64,000 nt of DNA from Blattamonas nauphoetae. Taxonomy: Eukaryota > Preaxostyla > Oxymonadida. The stretch lies in NCBI GenBank assembly GCA_033064195.1, contig JARBJD010000118.1:142203-206202 (forward strand), read 5' to 3'. Shown here in pieces: positions 3,158 to 64,000 of the stretch; the first letter of the stretch is position 1; the number at the start of each line of letters is the position of its first letter. Both the position numbers and the translations under genes were made by a program. A model generated the notes under the pieces. That model was not told where the DNA came from, made no database searches, and worked only from the letters and a program-made list of their open reading frames with translations.

Positions 3158-3289
3158 GCCGACCTGGACTTCCCGAGAAGAAAATGTTCTGTTATTTAGA
3201 AAAAGAGTACTACAAACTGATGGATGAATGAAATGGGTGTCTCGAAAGTACATTTTAGAACAATATGTGGGAACGATCTCGCTCATTTC

Positions 3290-4740
3290 AATCGATTGCT
3301 CTCGTCGCTCTCGCTCATCCCTCCCCATCCATCCTATCCATCCCGCTCTTCTCAATCGATTGCCCTCTTCGCTCGCGCTCATCCCTCCCCATCGATCCGG
3401 TCCATCTCGCTCATCCCTCCCCATCGATCCTGTCCATCCCGCTCTTCTCAATCGATTGCCCTCGTCGCTCGCGCTCATCCCTCCCCATCGATCCGGTCCA
3501 TCTCGCTCATCCCTCCCCATCGATCCTGTCCATCCCGCTCTTCTCAATCGATTGCCCTCGTCGCTCTCGCTCATCCCTCCCCATCGATCCTGTCCATCCC
3601 GCTCTTCTCAATCGATTGCCCTCGTCGCTCGCGCTCATCCCTCCCCATCGATCCGGTCCATCTCGCTCATCCCTCCCCATCGATCCTGTCCATCCCGCTC
3701 TTCTCAATCGATTGCCCTCGTCGCTCTCGCTCATCCCTCCCCATCGATCCTGTCCATCCCGCTCTTCTCAATCGATTGCCCTCGTCGCTCTCGCTCATCC
3801 CTCCCCATCGATCCTGTCCATCCCGCTCTTCTCAATCGATTGCCCTCGTCGCTCGCGCTCATCCCTCCCCATCGATCCTGTCCATCCCGCTCTTCTCAAT
3901 CGATTGCCCTCGTCGCTCGCGCTCATCCCTCCCCATCGATCTGGTCCATCTCGCTCATCCCTCCCCATCGATCCTGTCCATCCCGCTCTTCTCAATCGAT
4001 TGCCCTCGTCGCTCGCGCTCATCCCTCCCCATCGATCCTGTCCATCCCGCTCTTCTCAATCGATTGCCCTCGTCGCTCGCGCTCATCCCTCCCCATCGAT
4101 CTGGTCCATCTCGCTCATCCCTCCCCATCGATCCTGTCCATCCCGCTCTTCTCAATCGATTGCCCTCGTCGCTCGCGCTCATCCATCCCCATCGATCCGG
4201 TCCATCTCGCTCATCCCTCCCCATCGATCCTGTCCATCCCGCTCTTCTCAATCGATTGCCCTCGTCGCTCGCGCTCATCCCTCCCCATCGATCCGGTCCA
4301 TCTCGCTCATCCCTCCCCATCGATCCTGTCCATCCCGCTCTTCTCAATCGATTGCCCTCGTCGCTCTCGCTCATCCCTCCCCATCGATCCTGTCCATCCC
4401 GCTCTTCTCAATCGATTGCCCTCGTCGCTCTCGCTCATCCCTCCCCATCGATCCTGTCCATCCCGCTCTTCTCAATCGATTGCCCTCGTCGCTCTCGCTC
4501 ATCCCTCCCCATCGATCCTGTCCATCCCGCTCTTCTCAATCGATTGCCCTCGTCGCTCGCGCTCATCCCTCCCCATCGATCCTGTCCATCCCGCTCTTCT
4601 CAATCGATTGCCCTCGTCGCTCTCGCTCATCCCTCCCCATCGATCCGGTCCATCTCGCTCATCCCTCCCCATCGATCCTGTCCATCCCGCTCTTCTCAAT
4701 CGATTGCCTTCGTCGCTCTCGCTCATCCCTCCCCTTCGAT
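3290..4740. repeat. 64-bp / 96-bp satellite inside element A
   Basis: Head-to-tail copies of a 64 bp unit (beginning CTCAATCGATTGCCCTCGTC) alternate with 96 bp variants that contain an extra 32 bp block (CCGGTCCATCTCGCTCATCC...). Copies are nearly identical; the polymorphisms are mainly TCTCGC/TCGCGC and CCTG/CCGG. Because 64 is not a multiple of 3 and the unit has no stop in any forward frame, all three plus-strand frames stay open for about 1.9 kb. I regard those frames as a by-product of the repeat, not genes. Confidence 0.95.
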
Positions 4741-5185
4741 CCTGTCTGTCTCGCTCCCTCCTCTCCGTTCTGTTCCTCTCGATCACTCCCTCCTCTCCGT
4801 TCTGTTCCTCTCGATCACTCACTCTCCGTTCTGTTCCTCTCGTTCACTCACTCCTCTCCGTTCTGTTCCTCTCGATCACTCACTCCTCTCCGTTCTGTTC
4901 CTCTCGATCACTCCTCTCCGTTCTGTTCCTCTCGATCACTCACTCCTCTCCGTTCTGTTCCTCTCGATCACTCACTCCTCTCCGTTCTGTTCGTCTCGAG
5001 CGCTCCCTCCTCTCCGTTCTGTTCCTCTCGATCACACTCCTCTCCGTTCTGTTCCTCTCGATCACTCACTCCTCTCCGTTCTGTTCCTCTCGATCACTCA
5101 CTCCTCTCCGTTCTGTTCGTCTCGATCACTCACTCCTCTCCGTTCTGTTCGTCTCGAGCGCTCCCTCCTCTCCGTTTGTTTGATT
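4741..5185. repeat. 32-bp satellite inside element A
   Basis: About 13 tandem copies of a 32 bp unit with core CTCCGTTCTGTTCCTCTCGA and variable spacing (28-33 bp) follow directly on the 64/96 bp satellite. The shared 32 bp base period suggests that both arrays grew from a common unit length. The array runs into the 3' (C-terminal) end of the minus-strand transposase relic. Confidence 0.92.
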
Positions 5186-53776: not shown

Positions 53777-53844
53777 GGAAAATTGGACTTCTTTCGATTC
53801 TGGGATCGTGATTGAATCTTCTTTTGTTTAGTCGTTCATGTCTA

Positions 53845-55017
53845 ACTGGCGCACGTAACCCGAAATTGGCACGAAACCCGAAATTGTCAACACCTTCTTA
53901 ACCCATACTTCATTTTTCTCCGAACCCCTATTTTTGTGGGTCCCACTTTTTTTATGGGTCATCATCTCGACCCCATAAATCACTTGAGGCAGAAATCGAA
54001 CCTCCAAAATAGGATCCCTTGTTCAGGGTGCCTATTTAAGAGCCTTTTGTCCCCAAAAAATGTTGTCCTTAACATTTTAGCTTAGTGAATCTAACTTGAT
54101 TTTCTCTCGTGTTTATATTTTTCTCGAAATGACAATGGCCTGGGGAAAAACTGACTTTCCTGTATAATAAGCAGAGCTCGAAAACTTTTGATTTCATATT
54201 CGACATTAGTTCAATGGATGTTTTGTTGGATATTAATTTTTCTGAAAATTTTGAGAATTTTCGATGACCTCCTATTTCGGACTTTTCAGATATTTTCATT
54301 TTTATTCGCACAGTCTTAACATTATTCCAATTATCATCACTGAGAACAACAAAATGATGGATTTAGGTGATTTCGGGTCATGACTGTGTCAAATCAACTG
54401 AATCTGAAGAAGAAACTCCTCTCAGATAGAATGTGAGAAATCGATTTTGCTGACAATGGCAAAAGTCCGAAATAGGAGGTCATCGAAAATTCTCAAAATT
54501 TTCAGAAAAATTAATATCCAACAAAACATCCATATTGGTGAAAACTTCATGTCGGAACTATGTCTGGTTGTGGAGATATGATCAAAACAAGTTTTCGAGC
54601 TCTTAAGCTTATTATACAGGAAGTCAGTTTTTTCCCATTTTTCGTCCAGCTCCCCAGGATTTTTCATTTTCAAAAATTGTCATTTCGAGAGAAAACAATC
54701 CTAAACCACCATAAATCAAACGAGAAAGAAAAATCTTGAACAGGCGTAGAGAAAGTGGTCGTGAAGTTAGGATTCACTAAGCTAAAATGTTAAGGACAAC
54801 ATTTTTGGGGACCAAAAGGCTCTTAAATAGGCACCCTGAACAAGGGATCCTATTTTGGAGGTTCGATTTCTGCCTCAAGTGATTTATGGGGTCGAGATGA
54901 TGACCCATAAAAAAAGTGGGACCCACAAAAATAGGGGTTCGGAGAAAAATGAAGTATGGGTTAAGAAGGTGTTGACAATTTCGGGTTTCGTGCCAATTTC
55001 GGGTTACGTGCGCCAGT
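53845..55017. mobile_element. Element E: fold-back, TA-flanked palindromic element nested in D
   Basis: ACTGGCGCACGTAACCCG at the left is mirrored at the right (ends CGTGCGCCAGT at 55017), with TA on both sides (53843-53844 and 55018-55019). The inverted arms stay almost perfectly complementary for about 250 bp (to about 54095 and from about 54768). Further inner blocks (CCTCCTATTTCGGACTTTT near 54270 and its mirror near 54465) extend the palindrome. It encodes nothing. The TA duplication suggests mobilisation by Tc1/mariner-type transposase. Confidence 0.85.
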
Positions 55018-55473
55018 TACCTTGTTCCTTCTCAGACTTCACTCCAAATCGGAGAGTTTTGTTCAAGTTTTGGCAGAAGACAAGATTGTGAAAGAGACAA
55101 AGGAATAACTCGAGTCATTGTTATTAAATACTTGTTTTCCACACAGAATTATCACGAAAGCGCTTGTCTTGATATGTGATCGGGATCAAACCCATTGATC
55201 GTTGTATTCGACATAGATCGCCTTTCACTGGTGTTTGGAGATTGGATTCCTTTGAAAGTGATTTAATTATCACGAATAGAGTCATTTCTGTGTCTAATTC
55301 TTGGTTTCTATCACACCTCATGTCAATAACTCATTTCTCTGTTTAATTTGAAAAGACTTCGGAGAAATGGTATATTCAGATTATGGGTTCCCAAATTTCT
55401 CCGGTCAGTGACCGTCAGTACTTTTCGGTGAAAACTGACCGGTCAGTGCCGGTCAGCCATGCCTAGAAAGAAC

Positions 55474-57143: not shown

Positions 57144-57824
57144 TCATGGGTTGATCAATCCATTTTGAACAACACATCTCAGCCACAGAAGCAACGGACG
57201 ACAACGCATGAGCCAATGACGCACAGGGGAGTTCCTCCAGTCCACAATCCGAGTGGTCCCAGAATCCAGTCGACATTCAATTGGGTTTCCAGCAACGTGA
57301 GGATGGAACTCGTACAGCAGCGAAGATGAGTTGGACTTTGATGCTCGGAGAGACGCATCAAACACCAAAACTTCACCCATTGTGCTCGACAGATTGAACA
57401 TCCCATCCCAATCGGTCGATGAGAACGATCCCCCATTCAGTTTCGACAAAAGAATCGCACTCCCGACACCCGAGCTCGAACATCCCGACAAAACTGTGTT
57501 CAACACTGAAACTCGAGCTGTGTTGCTCGCATCAGCACGCAGAACACTTCCATGACCCTCCAACACAACAATCGACGAGAAGCGGCAATTCGACATCGAA
57601 ACTGAACAGCTCGTCGAAATCAGAGCAACAGACGAGAGAGACGCTGACGAGACATTCGTCGATTCCAGTGTCACTTGGTGAGCTGAACCACAAATCAGTT
57701 GGAACGAGAAAGGATATTCGCCTTTAGGAGAGAAGGAGCAGGACGTGACTTGGAGTGACCCTCCAGTGACGGCGAATAATTTATCAGATGTGATGGACTG
57801 TGGGAGAAGGAAGCAGAGTGATGA
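57144..57824 (-). pseudogene. Receptor-type ectodomain fragment, truncated at the telomeric tract
   Basis: Open minus-strand frame from the telomere repeat at 57824 leftwards: FAVTGGSLQVTSCSFSPKG, then CGSAHQVTLESTNVSSASLS, SVSMSNCRFSSIVVLEGHGS and SVLNTVLSGCSSSGVGSAIL. The alternation of short hydrophobic strands with S/N/G turns is typical of parallel beta-helix adhesin-like ectodomains, and the style matches the receptor relic at 17094-19945. Coding sequence ends near 57250 at a GTGCGTC donor-like site. Upstream coding is missing because the frame meets GGGTTAGGGTTAG, consistent with a chromosome break inside the gene. Confidence 0.65.
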
Positions 57825-57866
57825 GGGTTAGGGTTAGTAGCGGACCCTTGAAACAGCTAACCCTAA
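57825..57866. repeat. Interstitial telomeric repeats in inverted arrangement
   Basis: GGGTTAGGGTTAG at 57825-57837 is followed after 19 nt by CTAACCCTAA at 57857-57866, the inverse of TTAGGGTTAG. The two can form a 10 bp stem with a 19 nt loop. The direct tract marks the left boundary of the telomere-bounded segment. Confidence 0.9.
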
Positions 57867-57869
57867 GTC

Positions 57870-58239
57870 GTAATTGGGATCTTATTCACTTATTTCAACT
57901 TGTTGGAAATCCTATCTCACTTTTATGAACACTTCACTACTAATTGAAACACTTTCTGCAATATCATTTGATCAACCCATTATCATTAATCTCAATTCAA
58001 ACCAAGTTTTGATCGGTCAACTTTTTTCTTCAAGCTGCAATAAAAATGCACTATCAACGACCGAATAAGGAAAGGTATCACTCCTTCCTTTGTATAATCT
58101 ATCTCCACTCTTATTTTCAATATGCTTCAAAACCATTCACAGATATACCCGTGCTAACATCCGACGTGTGTTTTCTTCTTTTCTCTACATTATCTCCAAC
58201 CCAGATTTACAGAAAGAATCTCGTTTGCTGGAGGAAGCC
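57870..58239 (+). other. 5' leader of the recombinase gene
   Basis: AT-rich sequence between the telomeric hairpin and the preferred ATG at 58240. The frame is open upstream from another ATG at 58090, giving 50 extra residues (MYNLSPLLFSICFKTIHRYT...). These are hydrophobic and unlike the polar N-terminus that follows, so I favour 58240. No promoter element can be named. Confidence 0.4.
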
Positions 58240-61200
58240 ATGGAAACAACAACTATGGTTGCAGAACAAACAAATCAGGAGAAGGAGCCGACTACCCCGA
58301 CACAGAACCGTCAACTCTACAACTTACTCAACACCCCATCATTCGTACACTCGGCTCTCGCGACTCCCAAGTCAACCAAACACATTGAGCGAGCTCTGCG
58401 AGAAGTTGGACCAGCAGTGGAAGCGCCAGTGGTTCGAGTCCCGACACCTCCAAATGATTCGCCAGAAATCCGACCACTATCAGACCTTCTACCACGCATC
58501 CAGTCTCAAGAACTGCCACTGCCACTATACAAAGTCAATCTGTGGAGAGATGGAAAAAAAGTACCTCTCACAGAATCCGAACTTGAAAACTGGAACCAAT
58601 TCCTAGATGAAATGCCGCCCGTCCCGGTGTTTGAAGTTGCAAGAAGAAGAAACAGAGAGAAAACAAGTCAATCCAAGCAAAAAACAGTGAAGAGCAACAA
58701 GAATCAAAAGCCATCGAAGCGCAAAACTCGAAGAGAAAAAACAACGAGCGAAGAAGTCAGCTGGTGCGAGCAAGAATCAGATATTGAAATGGAAATTACA
58801 AAAGTTAAACGACAAAGTTCAGAAAAGGCAGAAGAATCCGCAACTTGTTCAGATTCATCATCGTATCCGGAAGCTCGTCGGACAATTAAGATGGAAACTC
58901 GATCACACGCCAAGCCAGACTTGGTCATGCTCCGTCGTCCTATCATTGAAGACGACGAATCGATCGAAGATGATCTGGACTTTCCCACAAACTCACATTC
59001 TCCGTCAGGCCTCCCAACTGCTCTCACAGAGTCTCCATCAGGCCTCCCAACTTGTCTCGCAGCGACTTCTTCTGGCCTCCAAACTGCACTCGCAGCGACG
59101 TCTTCAGGTCTCCCAACTGCTCTCACAGTGTCTCCGTCAGGCCTCCCAACTTGTCTCGCAGCGACGTCTTCAGGTCTCCCGTCTGCTCTCACAGCGACTT
59201 CTTCAGGCTTCCCAACTGCTCTCACAGTGTCTTCTTCAGGTCTCCCGTCTGCTCTCACAGCGACTTCTTCAGGCTTCCCAACTGCTCTCACAGTGTCTTC
59301 TTCAGGCCTCCCGTCTGCTCTCACAGTGTCTCCGTCAGGCCTCCCAACTGCTCTCACAATGACACCTTCATGTGGGTCAACCACAAATTCGATGCTCGCT
59401 TCCATCCCAACAGACACGGCGTGCAACTTCTACGGCCCTTCGTCGTCCTTGTCATTCATCCCCCCAATGCCTTCTGCGAACTCGGCACACGTCGCTCCTT
59501 CCTTCGCTTTCACCTCCCCATCCATCCCAGCAAACTCGAGTTCCATCCCAACAACGGCCACTGCGAACTCAGCACCCGTCGCTCCTTCCTTCGCTTTCAC
59601 CTCCCCATCCATCCCAGCAGACTCGAGTTCCATCCCAACAACGGCTTCTGCGAACTCAGCACCCGTCGCTCCTTCCTTCGCTTTCGCCTCTCCATTCATC
59701 ACAGCAGACTCGAGTTCCATCCCAACAACGGCTTCTGCGAACTCAGCACCCGTCGCTCCTTCCTTCGCTTTCGCCTCTCCATTCATCACAGCAGACTCGA
59801 GTTCCATCCCACCAACGGCCACTGCGAACTCAGCACCCGTCGCTCCTTCCTTCGCTTTCACCTCCCCATCCATCCCAGCAAACTCAAGTTCCATCCCAAC
59901 AACGGCTTCTACGAACTCGGCACACGTCGCTCCTTCCTTCGCTTTCGCCTCTCCATTCATCACAGCAGACTCGAGTTCCATCTCAACAATGTCTTCTGCG
60001 AACTCGGCACCCGTCGCTCCTTCCTTCGCTTTCGCCTCTCCATTCATCACAGCAGACTCGAGTTCCATCCCAACAACGGCTTCAGCGAACTCGGCACACG
60101 TCGCTCCTTCCTTCGCTTTCGCCTCTCCATTCATCACAGCAGACTCGAGTTCCATCCCAACAACGGCTTCTGCGAACTCAGCACACGTCGCTCCTTCCTT
60201 CGCTTTCGCCTCTCCATTCATCCCAGCAAACTCAAGTTCCATCCCACCAATGGCTTCAGCGAACTCAGCACCCGTCGCTCCTTCCTTCGCTTTCACCTCC
60301 CCATCCATCCCAGCAAACTCAAGTTCCATCCCACCAACGGCCACTGCGAACTCAGCACCCGTCGCTCCTTCCTTCGCTTTCACCTCCCCATTCATCCCAG
60401 CAGACTCAAGTTCAGCCTCGCCATTCGTCCTCGCATTCCCACCTTCATGTCCATCTATCAACTCTCCATTCACATCTGCAGACTCGAGTTCCATCCCATC
60501 AAACTCGTCATTCATTGTAGCAATCCCTTCTTTCAACTTCTCATCCAACCCACCAACAGCTTCTTACATCCTCACCATCCCTTCTTGTCACTCGTCAACC
60601 AACTCCACAATCGCATCTTCAGACTCGCCATCCATGGATCATCCTGCCCCACAACCTGAAATGAATGAAGATTTGAACGACCTTGAACGAGATATCATCA
60701 ATGACTGGCTTGATCTGAAAGAAGGAGAGGGAGAAAAGATGGCAGACCGTGATTTGGAAGAAGAATGGCTGCGTGTCTACGCTGGTCGTCCGCGCATCAC
60801 GGAGCGACAAGCGCCGATTCAATTCACCGTCGTCCCATCCGACGCTTATCAGTCGAACGTCGGCACATCAGGGCTGTTCCGATTCATCACATCCACCACA
60901 CCAGAGCAACAAATCAATCCAAAACCGAACGCTGTTCCTTACTCCCTCGAAACCCAGCAGAAGCATCGCTGGGCGTACAGGTTGTGGGAGTTGTACTGCA
61001 ACCAATTCAAAATCTCTCCTCTCTTCCCTCTCAATCCCCAAGCTGTGACCGACTTCATCTACATGCTCGGCAAAAATTCGATTCTCCGCATCAGTTCCCT
61101 CTCAAAGCCTCTTCGAGGTGCTCTGCTCGCCCTCAATTCAATCCACACTGGACAACCAACTTCAGAATTCTTGAAGTGGACTATCAAAGGTGCCGTCGAG

Positions 61201-62661
61201 CTTGCCAAGAATTCCAAAGAAACACCAGACACATCCTGCGAAAAGCCTCCGTGCCTCATTTCAGATCTCACTATCATCCTCGACCACATCCCGGATCTCC
61301 ACCCCAAGAAAGCATTCGAATCCTCCCTCTTCCTCTTCTCCATCTGCTGTGGTGCGCGGGCCAGCACCTGCGCTGAAGTGAGGCTGGCTGATGTTCTTCG
61401 CGTCGTCTGTCTCCCCGACACTGAGGTGCTTCTCGTTACCTTCCGACTCCGCAAGATGAAGGGATCACAATCAACTACTATGAATGTGACGATGGAAGGC
61501 TCGCCATTTGCGAAGGAGACCGTCAATGTGATATACTGGATGGAGAAACATCTCCGAAGCTCGTTTGGTTTGTCTCTGATCACGTTTGAAACTTGGGGAA
61601 GTTGGATTGATCTTGAGACACGAATTTGGGGATGCGGAACAGATGCGATGAGGACGCAGTTTCAGAAAAGAGCCTTTCAAGCAGGCTTCCCCATCAATCT
61701 CTTTGGATTTCATTCGTTCCGCAGCGGATTCATCTCATCCGCTATCATCAAGGCTGGAGAAGATCCTGAAGCAAGAGCCAGAGTCCTTGAACAATGTGCA
61801 ATAGTGGCAAAGTGGATCCCGTTCTCATCCACGGAGATGGGATATGTCAAAACTAGTACAATCGGAGTCCACGTCGCCAATCGACTCGTCCAACCAAACG
61901 CCACTCTCCACTCATCCAACGTGCTCGAAAAAACCCTGACCCTGAGCGAGATTTTCCACAACATCAAACTGAAACCCGTCAAGTGGAGTGGGAGTGAACT
62001 ATACAAAGCCTTCTACCACGAGTGTCTGTGTTGGATCGTGCTCGCCTGTATTGGTCGAGATGAGAGTGTTGGTCGAGAACGAACTCTGTTCAGAAAAGCT
62101 TCGAATCTATACTCCCGGTCCCAAGGCTTCCAAGGATCACATGTCCAATCAGTGGAAGCAGCTCATGTATCAATTTTGGACAGTCTGAGGAATGGTGCTG
62201 ACTCCAGAAGTCTTTGCCTTCAATTGCTTTCGTTTGTTCGAGACGATCTGGTCTTCGATGCAACTCCTCAAGAGAGTTCGGAGATCCATTGTGTCGAAGG
62301 AACAGCTGTTAGACGGAGAAGAATGTGGAAGAATTGGGAGACGAACATTCTTCGAGAAGGGATGGCATGTGGAAAGAGTTGGGTGGAGATCTCCAAAGAT
62401 CTGACCAAACAAGGAAGTATTCGAACGAATGTTAACGTGAAGGACAAGTGGAGGAACGAGGTTGAAAAAAAGATGAGAGAGCTCAAGAATGCCGATCAAT
62501 TGAAGAGAGAGGATGTTGGAAGAGAGCTGTCCGGAGAAGGAACGATACACAAGAGACGAAGAGGGAGAAGATCCAGGCTGTCAATTGTTTTCGAGAAAGC
62601 AAGGATGCAGATGGAGCAGAAGGAACCTGAACAAAGAGATGAGGAGAGAGAACAAGAATAG
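58090..62661 (+). CDS. Tyrosine recombinase with C-terminal telobox Myb domain
   Basis: A single uninterrupted frame of 1,523 residues (1,473 from the preferred ATG at 58240). Numbering is from 58090. Residues 51-300 are polar with basic patches. About 304-425 consist of 11-residue repeats (SPSGLPTALTx). About 455-780 consist of 29-residue repeats (ANSAPVAPSFAFTSPSIPA...). The recombinase core follows at about 940-1270: an N-terminal helical core-binding-like region (WAYRLWELYCNQF), R1090 in CCGARASTCAEVRL, a beta-hairpin lysine in FRLRKMKGSQ, H1208-S-F-R1211 in LFGFHSFRSGF, W1241-like AKW and Y1252 in EMGYVKTS. This is the R-K-HxxR-(H/W)-Y set of tyrosine recombinases. Residues 1408-1465 form a Myb/SANT domain with W1413 and the telobox RTNVNVKDKWRN (1445-1456), as in TRF-type double-stranded telomere-binding proteins. 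A basic tail HKRRRGRRSRL could be a nuclear signal. The function as a telomere-targeting integrase is inferred. Confidence 0.85.
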   Translation: MYNLSPLLFSICFKTIHRYTRANIRRVFSSFLYIISNPDLQKESRLLEEAMETTTMVAEQTNQEKEPTTPTQNRQLYNLLNTPSFVHSALATPKSTKHIERALREVGPAVEAPVVRVPTPPNDSPEIRPLSDLLPRIQSQELPLPLYKVNLWRDGKKVPLTESELENWNQFLDEMPPVPVFEVARRRNREKTSQSKQKTVKSNKNQKPSKRKTRREKTTSEEVSWCEQESDIEMEITKVKRQSSEKAEESATCSDSSSYPEARRTIKMETRSHAKPDLVMLRRPIIEDDESIEDDLDFPTNSHSPSGLPTALTESPSGLPTCLAATSSGLQTALAATSSGLPTALTVSPSGLPTCLAATSSGLPSALTATSSGFPTALTVSSSGLPSALTATSSGFPTALTVSSSGLPSALTVSPSGLPTALTMTPSCGSTTNSMLASIPTDTACNFYGPSSSLSFIPPMPSANSAHVAPSFAFTSPSIPANSSSIPTTATANSAPVAPSFAFTSPSIPADSSSIPTTASANSAPVAPSFAFASPFITADSSSIPTTASANSAPVAPSFAFASPFITADSSSIPPTATANSAPVAPSFAFTSPSIPANSSSIPTTASTNSAHVAPSFAFASPFITADSSSISTMSSANSAPVAPSFAFASPFITADSSSIPTTASANSAHVAPSFAFASPFITADSSSIPTTASANSAHVAPSFAFASPFIPANSSSIPPMASANSAPVAPSFAFTSPSIPANSSSIPPTATANSAPVAPSFAFTSPFIPADSSSASPFVLAFPPSCPSINSPFTSADSSSIPSNSSFIVAIPSFNFSSNPPTASYILTIPSCHSSTNSTIASSDSPSMDHPAPQPEMNEDLNDLERDIINDWLDLKEGEGEKMADRDLEEEWLRVYAGRPRITERQAPIQFTVVPSDAYQSNVGTSGLFRFITSTTPEQQINPKPNAVPYSLETQQKHRWAYRLWELYCNQFKISPLFPLNPQAVTDFIYMLGKNSILRISSLSKPLRGALLALNSIHTGQPTSEFLKWTIKGAVELAKNSKETPDTSCEKPPCLISDLTIILDHIPDLHPKKAFESSLFLFSICCGARASTCAEVRLADVLRVVCLPDTEVLLVTFRLRKMKGSQSTTMNVTMEGSPFAKETVNVIYWMEKHLRSSFGLSLITFETWGSWIDLETRIWGCGTDAMRTQFQKRAFQAGFPINLFGFHSFRSGFISSAIIKAGEDPEARARVLEQCAIVAKWIPFSSTEMGYVKTSTIGVHVANRLVQPNATLHSSNVLEKTLTLSEIFHNIKLKPVKWSGSELYKAFYHECLCWIVLACIGRDESVGRERTLFRKASNLYSRSQGFQGSHVQSVEAAHVSILDSLRNGADSRSLCLQLLSFVRDDLVFDATPQESSEIHCVEGTAVRRRRMWKNWETNILREGMACGKSWVEISKDLTKQGSIRTNVNVKDKWRNEVEKKMRELKNADQLKREDVGRELSGEGTIHKRRRGRRSRLSIVFEKARMQMEQKEPEQRDEEREQE
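58999..60420 (+). repeat. In-frame 33-bp and 87-bp coding repeats
   Basis: From 58999 to about 59370 there are about eleven 33 bp units (TCAGGCCTCCCAACTGCTCT core). From about 59465 to 60420 there are about eleven 87 bp units (core GTCGCTCCTTCCTTCGCTTT). Both are multiples of three and low in stops, so other frames on both strands are also open; only the recombinase frame continues into recognisable domains. The peptide repeats are S/P/A/T-rich and probably disordered, a linker between the N-terminus and the recombinase core. Confidence 0.9.
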
Positions 62662-62814
62662 AAAGGACGAATGAGTCTAGTGCTACCAACCAGTCTCAAA
62701 AAATTGTAAGAACAGATAAAATATTTTTGATTTGCATCTCACCATCACTTCGCTCTCCACCAGTTCTGTTCCGAAAAGATGAAAGAGGTTGTGATGGTGA
62801 GGGTGTGATTCTCC

Positions 62815-63095
62815 ACTCTCCACATTCTCTCTCCCAGCTTTCTCCTTTCTCTCCCAGTCTTCTCGTCTGCTCCTCCCTCTCTCCCAGCTTTCTCATCTCC
62901 ATCCTCATCTCTCCCAGTCTTCTCGTCTGCTCCTCCCTCTCTCCCAGCTTTCTCATCTCCATCCTCATCTCTCCCAGTCTTCTCGTCTGCTCCTCCCTCT
63001 CTCCCAGCTTTCTCATCTCCATCCTCATCTCTCCCAGTCTTCTCGTCTGCTCCTCCCTCTCTCCCAGCTTTCTCATCTCTATCCCTCTCTCTCTC
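62815..63095. repeat. 60-bp minisatellite downstream of the recombinase gene
   Basis: Exact 60 bp period visible at 62881, 62941 and 63001 (CTCCCAGCTTTCTCATCTCC then ATCCTCATCTCTCCCAGTCT...), about 4.5 copies in total, pyrimidine-rich on the plus strand. The unit contains a shorter internal CTCTCCCAG(C/T)(T/C)TTCTC repeat. The flanks to 63193 are also CT-rich. Confidence 0.92.
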
Positions 63096-63193
63096 TCAAC
63101 ATTCTTGCCCTCATCCCCATCTTTCCCCACTTTCTGTGTCTTCCCTCCACATCTCACCACTTTCTCCGACTCTCTTCCACATGTCTCCCCACT

Positions 63194-63246
63194 GGGTTAG
63201 GGTTAGGGTTAGGGTTAGGGTTAGGGTTAGGGTTAGGGTTAGGGTA
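63194..63246 (+). repeat. Telomeric repeat tract (GGGTTA)8
   Basis: Eight perfect GGGTTA copies followed by GGGTA. The orientation (G-rich strand reading to the right) is that of a right-hand chromosome end. Sequence continues beyond it, so the tract is interstitial in this assembly. Confidence 0.97.
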
Positions 63247-63977
63247 TCCAACGCAGAACCCAGGACCTAAGCGTCCATTCATACCTCGATCGATTGAGGT
63301 CCCAACTACCCTCATTTCTGAGAAACAATTTTTGTCGGAACTCTGAGTTGGGACGTGTACTGGACACCCAAAGTTGATTTTTGAAAAATTTATTTTTTTA
63401 TCCATATCCGACAAAGTTGGCGGAGCGAGCTGAAATTTCACATGAACAACAATGTAGGTCTAGTACATGTCCCCACCAAATATTATTGAAATCCCTCCTC
63501 CCTGAAGGAAGTTATTTACCAAAATACATTTTTGCCACTTTTTCAGCATAGCCGGCATGAGACCCCCCCTGACCCATGACCTAACCGTCGAAATTTTTTT
63601 GGTGTGTTTAGTCGGTCGAGTAACGATCGATTGTGGAAAAAGTTTGAAAAGAATGTTGAGGAGGAAAAAAATATGGACCCGACAAGTCGACTTTTTTTGA
63701 AAAAAAAATCAGCATAGTCAGCACCGACCCCAAAAAATCTCTAAGTAAAAATTTTTTTTAAAATGTTCAAAAACCACTCTTTTTCGATCTCAATCCCTCC
63801 ATCCTGACTACCAACCCGATTTCAACGAATTTTTCAAGATTTTACATCGATTAGTAACTGGATCTGGTCAACACAGTTTCAAAATTCCATTCACAAGTTA
63901 GGCTCCGACAGACAAAATAACTTCTCCAGAAAGGAAAATTCTCACTACAATGTGCTGATCTCGATGTGGAACGTATG
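63247..63977. other. Noncoding segment between two telomeric tracts
   Basis: AT-rich sequence with homopolymer runs and no sizeable open frame. I see no rRNA, tRNA or TIR. It is bounded at the left by (GGGTTA)8 and at the right by TTTAGGGTTAGGG. It could be a second, non-autonomous telomere-inserted element or a subtelomeric repeat. Confidence 0.5.
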
Positions 63978-64000
63978 TTTAGGGTTAGGGCTAGGCTAGG
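63978..64000 (+). repeat. Degenerate telomeric repeats at the window end
   Basis: TTTAGGGTTAGGG followed by CTAGGCTAGG, degenerate telomere-like repeats. They have the same orientation as the 63194 tract. The window ends here, so it is unclear whether a terminal telomere follows. Confidence 0.75.

Follow-up and report, generated by a model that had tools for sequence, protein, structure and literature searches.

Telomere-targeted elements known so far are mostly retroelements. Several described systems resemble the locus analysed here. TATE elements of Leishmania Viannia and other kinetoplastids encode a tyrosine recombinase (YR), lie at chromosome ends in a fixed place within GGGTTA and leave internal remnants (PMC6681497, PMC2696322). 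Cryptons are DNA-only YR elements with a C-terminal DNA-binding domain (GCR1_C in CryptonF), and Ndc10/Cbf2 and QRICH1 are Crypton-derived (PMC3212892). The Y' elements of Saccharomyces are repeated subtelomeric blocks, each with an open reading frame (ORF) and with interstitial telomeric tracts between them, that spread by recombination and break-induced replication (BIR) (PMC13177704). MoTeR retrotransposons of Magnaporthe are linked to telomeres, carry truncations healed by new telomere and undergo BIR through interstitial telomeres; in their arrays long interstitial tracts are reported to be prone to breakage, and tracts of at most (TTAGGG)2 to be stable (PMC7367193). Here we analysed a window of 64,000 nucleotides (C22:142203-206202 of 206202, the right edge coinciding with the contig end), which carries a gene for a YR joined to a Myb domain (YR-Myb). 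Its source, Blattamonas nauphoetae, is an oxymonad protist of the cockroach gut, and its genome was searched as 88.3 Mb in 837 contigs. On balance we think it probable, with limited confidence, that a Crypton-like YR-Myb gene stands first in a Y'-like block, and that this block is captured through its telomeric left border by broken chromosome ends seeded with telomere repeats.

The left side of the block and the gene behind it are arranged as follows.

57144..57821, no strand: left flank, a portion of a dispersed repeat that is unoccupied elsewhere in the genome (57144 is an ORF limit, not a mapped boundary)
57822..57837, plus strand: left telomeric tract TGAGGGTTAGGGTTAG, missing at the empty site
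57838..57856, plus strand: initial 19 bases of the repeated unit, which with both arms form TTAGGGTTAG-N19-CTAACCCTAA
57857-57866, minus strand: inverted telomeric motif CTAACCCTAA, not mentioned in an earlier note on this DNA
58090-62661, plus strand: YR-Myb gene, 1523 aa, an open frame from TTG 58090

The repeat GGGTTAGGGTTAG ends at 57837, directly before the repeated unit, and C27 holds another start of the TTAGGGTTAG-N19-CTAACCCTAA type with identical 19-base spacing. The window contains 12 copies of TTAGGGTTAG with at most one mismatch where 1.08 are expected, a count that 0/100 shuffles reached. The earliest in-frame ATG of the ORF is at 58240; the true start is uncertain and a small 5' exon is possible.

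Left flanks were searched genome-wide for unoccupied paralogues, and the best candidates were scored. For the window, 200 bp of the flank match at least 13 other places at 96-100%, and in 4/4 fetched copies the repeat runs on as AGAGTGAAGATATTG without a telomere repeat (junction AGTGA|TGAGGGTTAGGGTTAG, empty AGTGAAGATATT). The corresponding pairs are GTGGG|TTAGGGTTAG and GTGGGAATTGG for C501, CATTA|GGGTTAGGGTTAG and CATTATTCCC for C214, and GTCAC|TGATTAGGGTTTTAGGGTTAG and GTCACCAGAAATC for C332; across seven junctions, none of 16 fetched unoccupied loci had a telomere repeat at the junction point. An eighth junction, in C86, interrupts a YR gene of the ATCAG type and reads ACTCC|TGATTAGGGTTAG where three intact copies have ACTCCAGACG. 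The continuation of the empty site was absent distal to the element in 4/4 cases tested (C22, C214, C332 and C501), with only 11-12-base chance matches. Because the empty sites lack the repeat and their continuation is not found distally, the left tract is a new telomere on a broken end that had lost its distal part, and not a prior telomere array. Integration into an existing telomere array, which the earlier note had proposed as the simplest reading, was rejected in that simple form, since 0/8 testable empty sites contain telomere repeats. A target-site motif CTGAT, suggested by several left junctions reading CTGATTAGGG, was also rejected; the TGA in C86 belongs to the added seed and not to the target, because the intact copies read ACTCCAGACG.

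The genome contains the sequence TGATTAGGGTTAG only 10 times, as against 45 for the reversed control, always within ~16 kb of a contig end and with C immediately before TGA in 10/10 occurrences; the sites include C39:183180, C44:3623, C79:1180, C86:9491, C99:139534, C114:1687, C133:14613 and C235:15545. The shared non-telomeric prefix of many healed ends, C|TGATTAGGG, may mirror the telomerase RNA template, and a genome search for a separate template locus with the TGATTAGGGTTAG 13-mer found none.

The 5' ends of the family were located by querying the genome with the first bases of five subfamilies, a search that more diverged ends would escape. It returned 17 ends (8 of the ATCAG type, 4 AACGAG, 2 TAATCG, 2 TATCAG and 1 of the window type), directly preceded by GGGTTAG in 16/17 and by GGGTTTG in 1/17. 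The association with telomeric repeats claimed earlier is borne out, with 17/17 5' ends in five subfamilies next to a telomeric motif, and the family is multicopy and subtelomeric. Fifteen of the left junctions are distinct, as C745 duplicates that of C355 and C814 that of C332, and their telomere-like tracts measure 10-23 nt, compared with 24-66 nt for the tracts ahead of other blocks (C22, C39 three times, C214, C284, C99). Within the ATCAG type, C27, C107, C332 and C814 have a variant border (T)TTTTAGGGTTAG|, with TTTTAGGG as the last-but-one repeat, whereas C501 and C355 have plain repeats and the border GGGTTAGGGTTAG|. The same four copies also have two substitutions in common (alignment columns 237 and 505) that set them apart from C501 and C355. 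From this agreement between variant border and substitutions, part of the left tract appears to travel with the element.

These borders bear on an alternative in which the Myb domain docks the YR on telomeric DNA and a discrete (circular) element is integrated at GGGTTAG, healing having come earlier and long left tracts having shrunk afterwards. We regard it as quite unlikely. The boundary phase GGGTTAG|, fixed across five subfamilies, agrees with docking, and in TATE there is already a YR element that keeps to one position within the telomere hexamer (PMC6681497, PMC2696322). The left tracts, shorter at all 15 junctions than those before other blocks, speak against it, but they need not be original, given the tract instability reported for MoTeR (PMC7367193); their length is not decisive, because longer tracts may have been lost as in MoTeR arrays. 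The conserved phase would follow from YR cleavage fixed at GGGTTAG|, but the variant inherited border and the lack of a right end would not, and the movement of the TTTTAGGGTTAG border with the element argues that the crossover was not fixed at the last G.

The right side of the block reads as follows.

62848..63093, plus strand: tandem repeats of 30/60 bp that make up the non-coding 3' tail, which is cut short at 63193 by comparison with the C138 copy
63194..63245, plus strand: right telomeric tract (GGGTTA)8.7, where the C138 copy runs on without a tract
63246-63978, no strand: further subtelomeric block, flanked on both sides by telomeric motifs and lying beyond the earlier note
63979..64000, plus strand: degenerate telomeric motif at the contig end, likewise beyond the earlier note

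The earlier note had delimited a 5.36-kb segment with telomeric edges. Tracts are indeed present on both sides, but the right one is internal to a longer copy: the C138 copy, 97.4% identical to the window, continues past 63193 into more tail repeats. In 6/6 comparable cases the right tract stands at an internal position of an uninterrupted paralogue (window against C138, C284 and C27 against C501, C99 against C235, C214 against C39, and the C332 copy of a sixth subfamily, F6, against C138). These right tracts mark truncations healed by telomere. No common right end was found among C284, C501, C27, C355, C107, C138, C99, C235, C133 and C470, which is difficult to reconcile with docking of a discrete element. 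The left flanks of C107 and C355 differ, yet the two copies match at 96-99% as far as contig C107 reaches, ~9.6 kb past the matched gene segment, without a telomere tract; distal sequence common to copies, with no element end in it, again counts against docking. None of 10 distal ORFs matched any Pfam family at E 0.01.

Several observations concern the sequences behind the gene. Each subfamily examined has its own unrelated 3' tandem-repeat tail right behind the stop codon (60-bp, 30-bp and 20/30-bp units), seen in the 3' regions of loci L011, L015-L019, L022, L023 and L010. A non-coding block of ~650-750 bp lies between telomere tracts at several chromosome ends (63246-63978 in the window, L011 from 4317, L012 from 3169); its C39 and C214 copies are 98.8% identical, and the window block resembles the block after the telomere tract in these two contigs, by eye and in shared short strings. 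Another telomere-bounded block starts with TAACGGCGG (L069:207-2003 on the minus strand, L018 from 3680, and the distal regions of C284 and C39). Its open frame reads centromere-ward, the orientation expected of a retroelement attached to a telomere 3' end, and Pfam gives nothing confident for its ORFs beyond a weak zinc-finger match (E 0.0015).

Capture of the block by telomere-seeded ends would proceed in steps. A chromosome would first break at a non-telomeric site, as the empty sites show, and the break would gain one to three telomere repeats, often as C|TGATTAGGGTTAG, an addition visible at the junctions and probably made by telomerase. The short seed could then recombine with a block elsewhere, on a different chromosome, at that block's telomeric left border, whereby the block and its distal sequence would become the new arm end. 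Later breaks on the telomere side would trim the block and be healed again, which would yield the right tract of the window, as the comparison with the C138 copy shows. The ~9 kb of one-sided sharing and the inherited TTTTAGGGTTAG border are the traces expected of BIR, and this process explains one-sided sharing without the YR. The YR may nevertheless assist or catalyse the exchange, and a YR using short shared cores could still perform it. Taken together, the evidence suggests a selfish DNA block that is picked up by broken ends. A stronger version makes YR-Myb a chromosome-end capture recombinase, its Myb domain binding a telomerase seed of one or two repeats and its YR swapping the seed with its own left border; we consider this version doubtful. 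If true, it would be a selfish system that exploits telomere healing and caps broken chromosomes in return.

The protein might also take no part. A host subtelomeric gene family copied by telomere-seeded BIR, with YR-Myb an uninvolved passenger, is possible though somewhat unlikely. All junction evidence holds without the protein, blocks lacking a YR gene (the 63246-63978 and TAACGGCGG types) also begin at a fixed point after telomere tracts, and Y' elements are acquired by BIR with interstitial telomeric sequences between them (PMC13177704). However, many copies retain the catalytic residues and their reading frames, and in the informative pair, C235 and C470, dN is 0.041, dS 0.240 and dN/dS 0.17 over 520 codons; the remaining pairs are too similar (dS 0.002, 0.005) or saturated. 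The YR-Myb reading frame is under constraint. Moreover, the YR-Myb gene starts ~250-350 bp after the left border in several diverged subfamilies, a spacing that passive copying does not require.

The protein encoded at 58090-62661 contains the following parts.

59005-59358 and 59457-60413, plus strand: coding tandem repeats of 33-bp and 87-bp units, respectively
60907..61989, plus strand: YR core, with the codons of R1090 at 61357, H1208 at 61711, R1211 at 61720 and Y1252 at 61843
62317-62475 (about), plus strand: Myb domain with the telobox-like VKDKWRN

In an alignment of relatives (A2), from which the window residue numbers were converted, R1090, K1124, H1208, R1211, W1242 and Y1252 are identical in 8/8 relatives, so that the R-K-HxxR-(H/W)-Y catalytic set of the tyrosine recombinase superfamily is complete in 8/8 rows, as docking would also have it. 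The core residues R1090, H1208xxR1211 and Y1252 stand where the earlier note placed them, and its assignment of the protein as a YR is supported by sequence, catalytic residues and predicted fold. Pfam Phage_integrase matches 3/8 relatives (best E 5.4e-5), the window's own row being unmatched. The predicted fold of the core resembles Cre, Xer, lambda Int and Flp, and also Ndc10 and QRICH1, while a solved-structure search with the core profile alone gave no match up to E 10. As to a viral origin, no relative of the family core was found in viral_contigs (116 pattern matches, 0 confirmed).

The C-terminal domain was described earlier as a TRF-like Myb with VKDKWRN, and both sequence and fold comparison pick zebrafish TRF for it. 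In the family-profile search, the top Myb-type match was GT-1 (0.0025), followed by TRF1 (0.2) and TBF1 (0.32). The telobox-like helix reads VNVKDKWRN in the window, VQIKDLWRN in C39 and VDCKDRWRN in P0014, a distant metagenome relative whose Myb domain is closest to c-Myb and not to TRF. Telobox-type Myb domains in these three agree with docking; since all three have it, the telobox may be ancestral. Within the genome, V.xKDxWRN is confined to the window and C39 subfamilies, four other subfamilies having an ordinary Myb third helix; the telobox thus occurs in only one of the two clades, and the other Blattamonas clade has RTPxNCxxxW-type helices. Three of the four subfamilies without a telobox still adjoin GGGTTAG. 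Telomeric borders are therefore independent of the telobox, and the idea of the telobox as a general targeting device is not supported. The probable target of the Myb domain is TTAGGGTTAG, either at the seed or at the border.

The family search, with the C-terminal 673 residues as query and 66 of 88 candidates scored, gave at least 70 YR-Myb matches in the genome. In a tree of 12 proteins, the window, C93 and C39 form one clade (95/96) and the other subfamilies a second (100/98). Nineteen copies are situated no more than 20 kb from a contig end, and 17/19 (on 15/17 contigs) face that end; the two-sided binomial p of 0.0007 is overstated because the copies are related. Eleven loci lie deeper inside contigs and are mostly fragments or contain stops, but the frame of one of them, C138:54644 (F6), is open.

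Unlike the 17/17 ends of five subfamilies, the 5' boundary of F6 (C138, C470, C332) lacks a telomeric motif. The earlier note had named paralogues without telomere repeats as grounds for rejecting its own model, and F6 is in part such a case. Several points weigh against capture by seeded ends. At 10-23 nt, the seeds are short by the standards of ordinary homologous recombination. Empty sites cover only 8/15 junctions, that of C133 lying within a tandem repeat, while C39, C27, C235, C99, C107, the second C86 and the second C133 junction fall outside the comparison. Two substitutions are thin support for an inherited border, and homopolymer gap columns split the copies differently. The right-side comparisons stopped before the right end of the longest copies, with which a large two-ended element remains compatible. 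The 17/19 orientation rests on 30 loci placed relative to contig ends, of 70 matches, with copies non-independent. Two copies depart from it: C1 is a broken fragment, and the junction of C355 recurs in C745, where it lies 0.7 kb from the end that the C745 copy faces. Finally, a single assembly is the basis, and errors are possible at individual junctions. For F6, a target GGTTTWCTC, suggested by C332 and C138, was dropped, as the C470 copy shows that F6 starts further left, at CCTGCTGAACTTA.

Should the telomere tracts be false joins, the pattern would be an assembly or annotation artefact. Reliance on one assembly, with reads not part of the analysis, leaves room for this, but one and the same boundary recurs at 15 distinct junctions in five subfamilies, and empty sites that match are present elsewhere, which makes it highly improbable.

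Elsewhere in the window, ~20000-52200 holds three direct copies of a 10.67-kb unit, and the stretches compared are 89-100% identical. Every copy has an ORF for a calcineurin-like phosphoesterase and a second, very long one without Pfam match, which measures 1532 aa in the middle copy and is either broken or shorter in the other two. An inverted repeat of 249 nt, 99% complementary, occupies 53843-54091 and 54771-55019 with 679 nt between. The ORF at 10567-11634 matches the DDE_1 superfamily endonuclease just over the Pfam cut-off (23.8 bits against 22), and at 3276-5180 units based on 32 bp form a large tandem array in which three frames of one strand are open.

The locus matters in several respects. 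Its YR is joined to a Myb domain of the kind found in telomere-binding proteins, and genes of this family mark healed chromosome breaks. Seed, break point and unoccupied site are all preserved in one genome, and the sequence therefore tells in what order breakage, healing and acquisition took place. Frequent terminal breakage and healing are documented in an oxymonad, and whether a recombinase encoded by an element helps to rebuild chromosome ends becomes a matter for direct biochemical study. The literature searched, subscription journals being outside its scope, yielded no description of the YR-Myb family, and in the genome paper for B. nauphoetae 0 words of the main text begin with telomer, transpos or recombinase (PMC10703272).

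The earlier note gave telomere-targeted retroelements as known, and no YR element with its own telomere-binding domain. TATE shows that telomeric YR elements do exist; no YR with its own Myb domain was found in the literature searched. Going by described features, TATE and the YR-Myb family both encode a YR and sit at chromosome ends. TATE differs in having a reverse transcriptase and a flanking TT duplication, where the YR-Myb blocks have 0/10 distal ORFs with a Pfam match, and in its boundary, GGG^TTA instead of GGGTTAG|; unlike in TATE, the Blattamonas YR is fused to Myb. No reverse transcriptase or RNase H was found beside the YR in the 10 distal ORFs or the window Pfam scans, which were not an exhaustive search. 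Like Cryptons, the family has a YR gene, with no reverse transcriptase recognised in the ORFs scanned, and an extra C-terminal DNA-binding domain, but with Myb in place of GCR1_C, a telomeric left border and no right end found. Y' elements share the organisation of repeated terminal blocks bounded by internal telomeric tracts. They encode a helicase, whereas Pfam scans of the YR-Myb protein, the window ORFs and the distal ORFs found no helicase ORF, and the YR-Myb blocks carry recombinase-Myb genes of several diverged subfamilies attached at non-telomeric breaks. MoTeR shares telomere linkage and healed truncations; unlike the YR-Myb blocks, these are retrotransposons and have no YR. TRF/TBF1-type telobox proteins likewise have a C-terminal Myb with (V)xxKDxWRN; in YR-Myb it is fused to a YR, and a Pfam scan of the whole protein listed only a weak Myb match and one other family, with no TRFH dimerisation domain. 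A Crypton-like YR-Myb gene leading a Y'-like subtelomeric block is thus a new form alongside the known telomeric YR element TATE.

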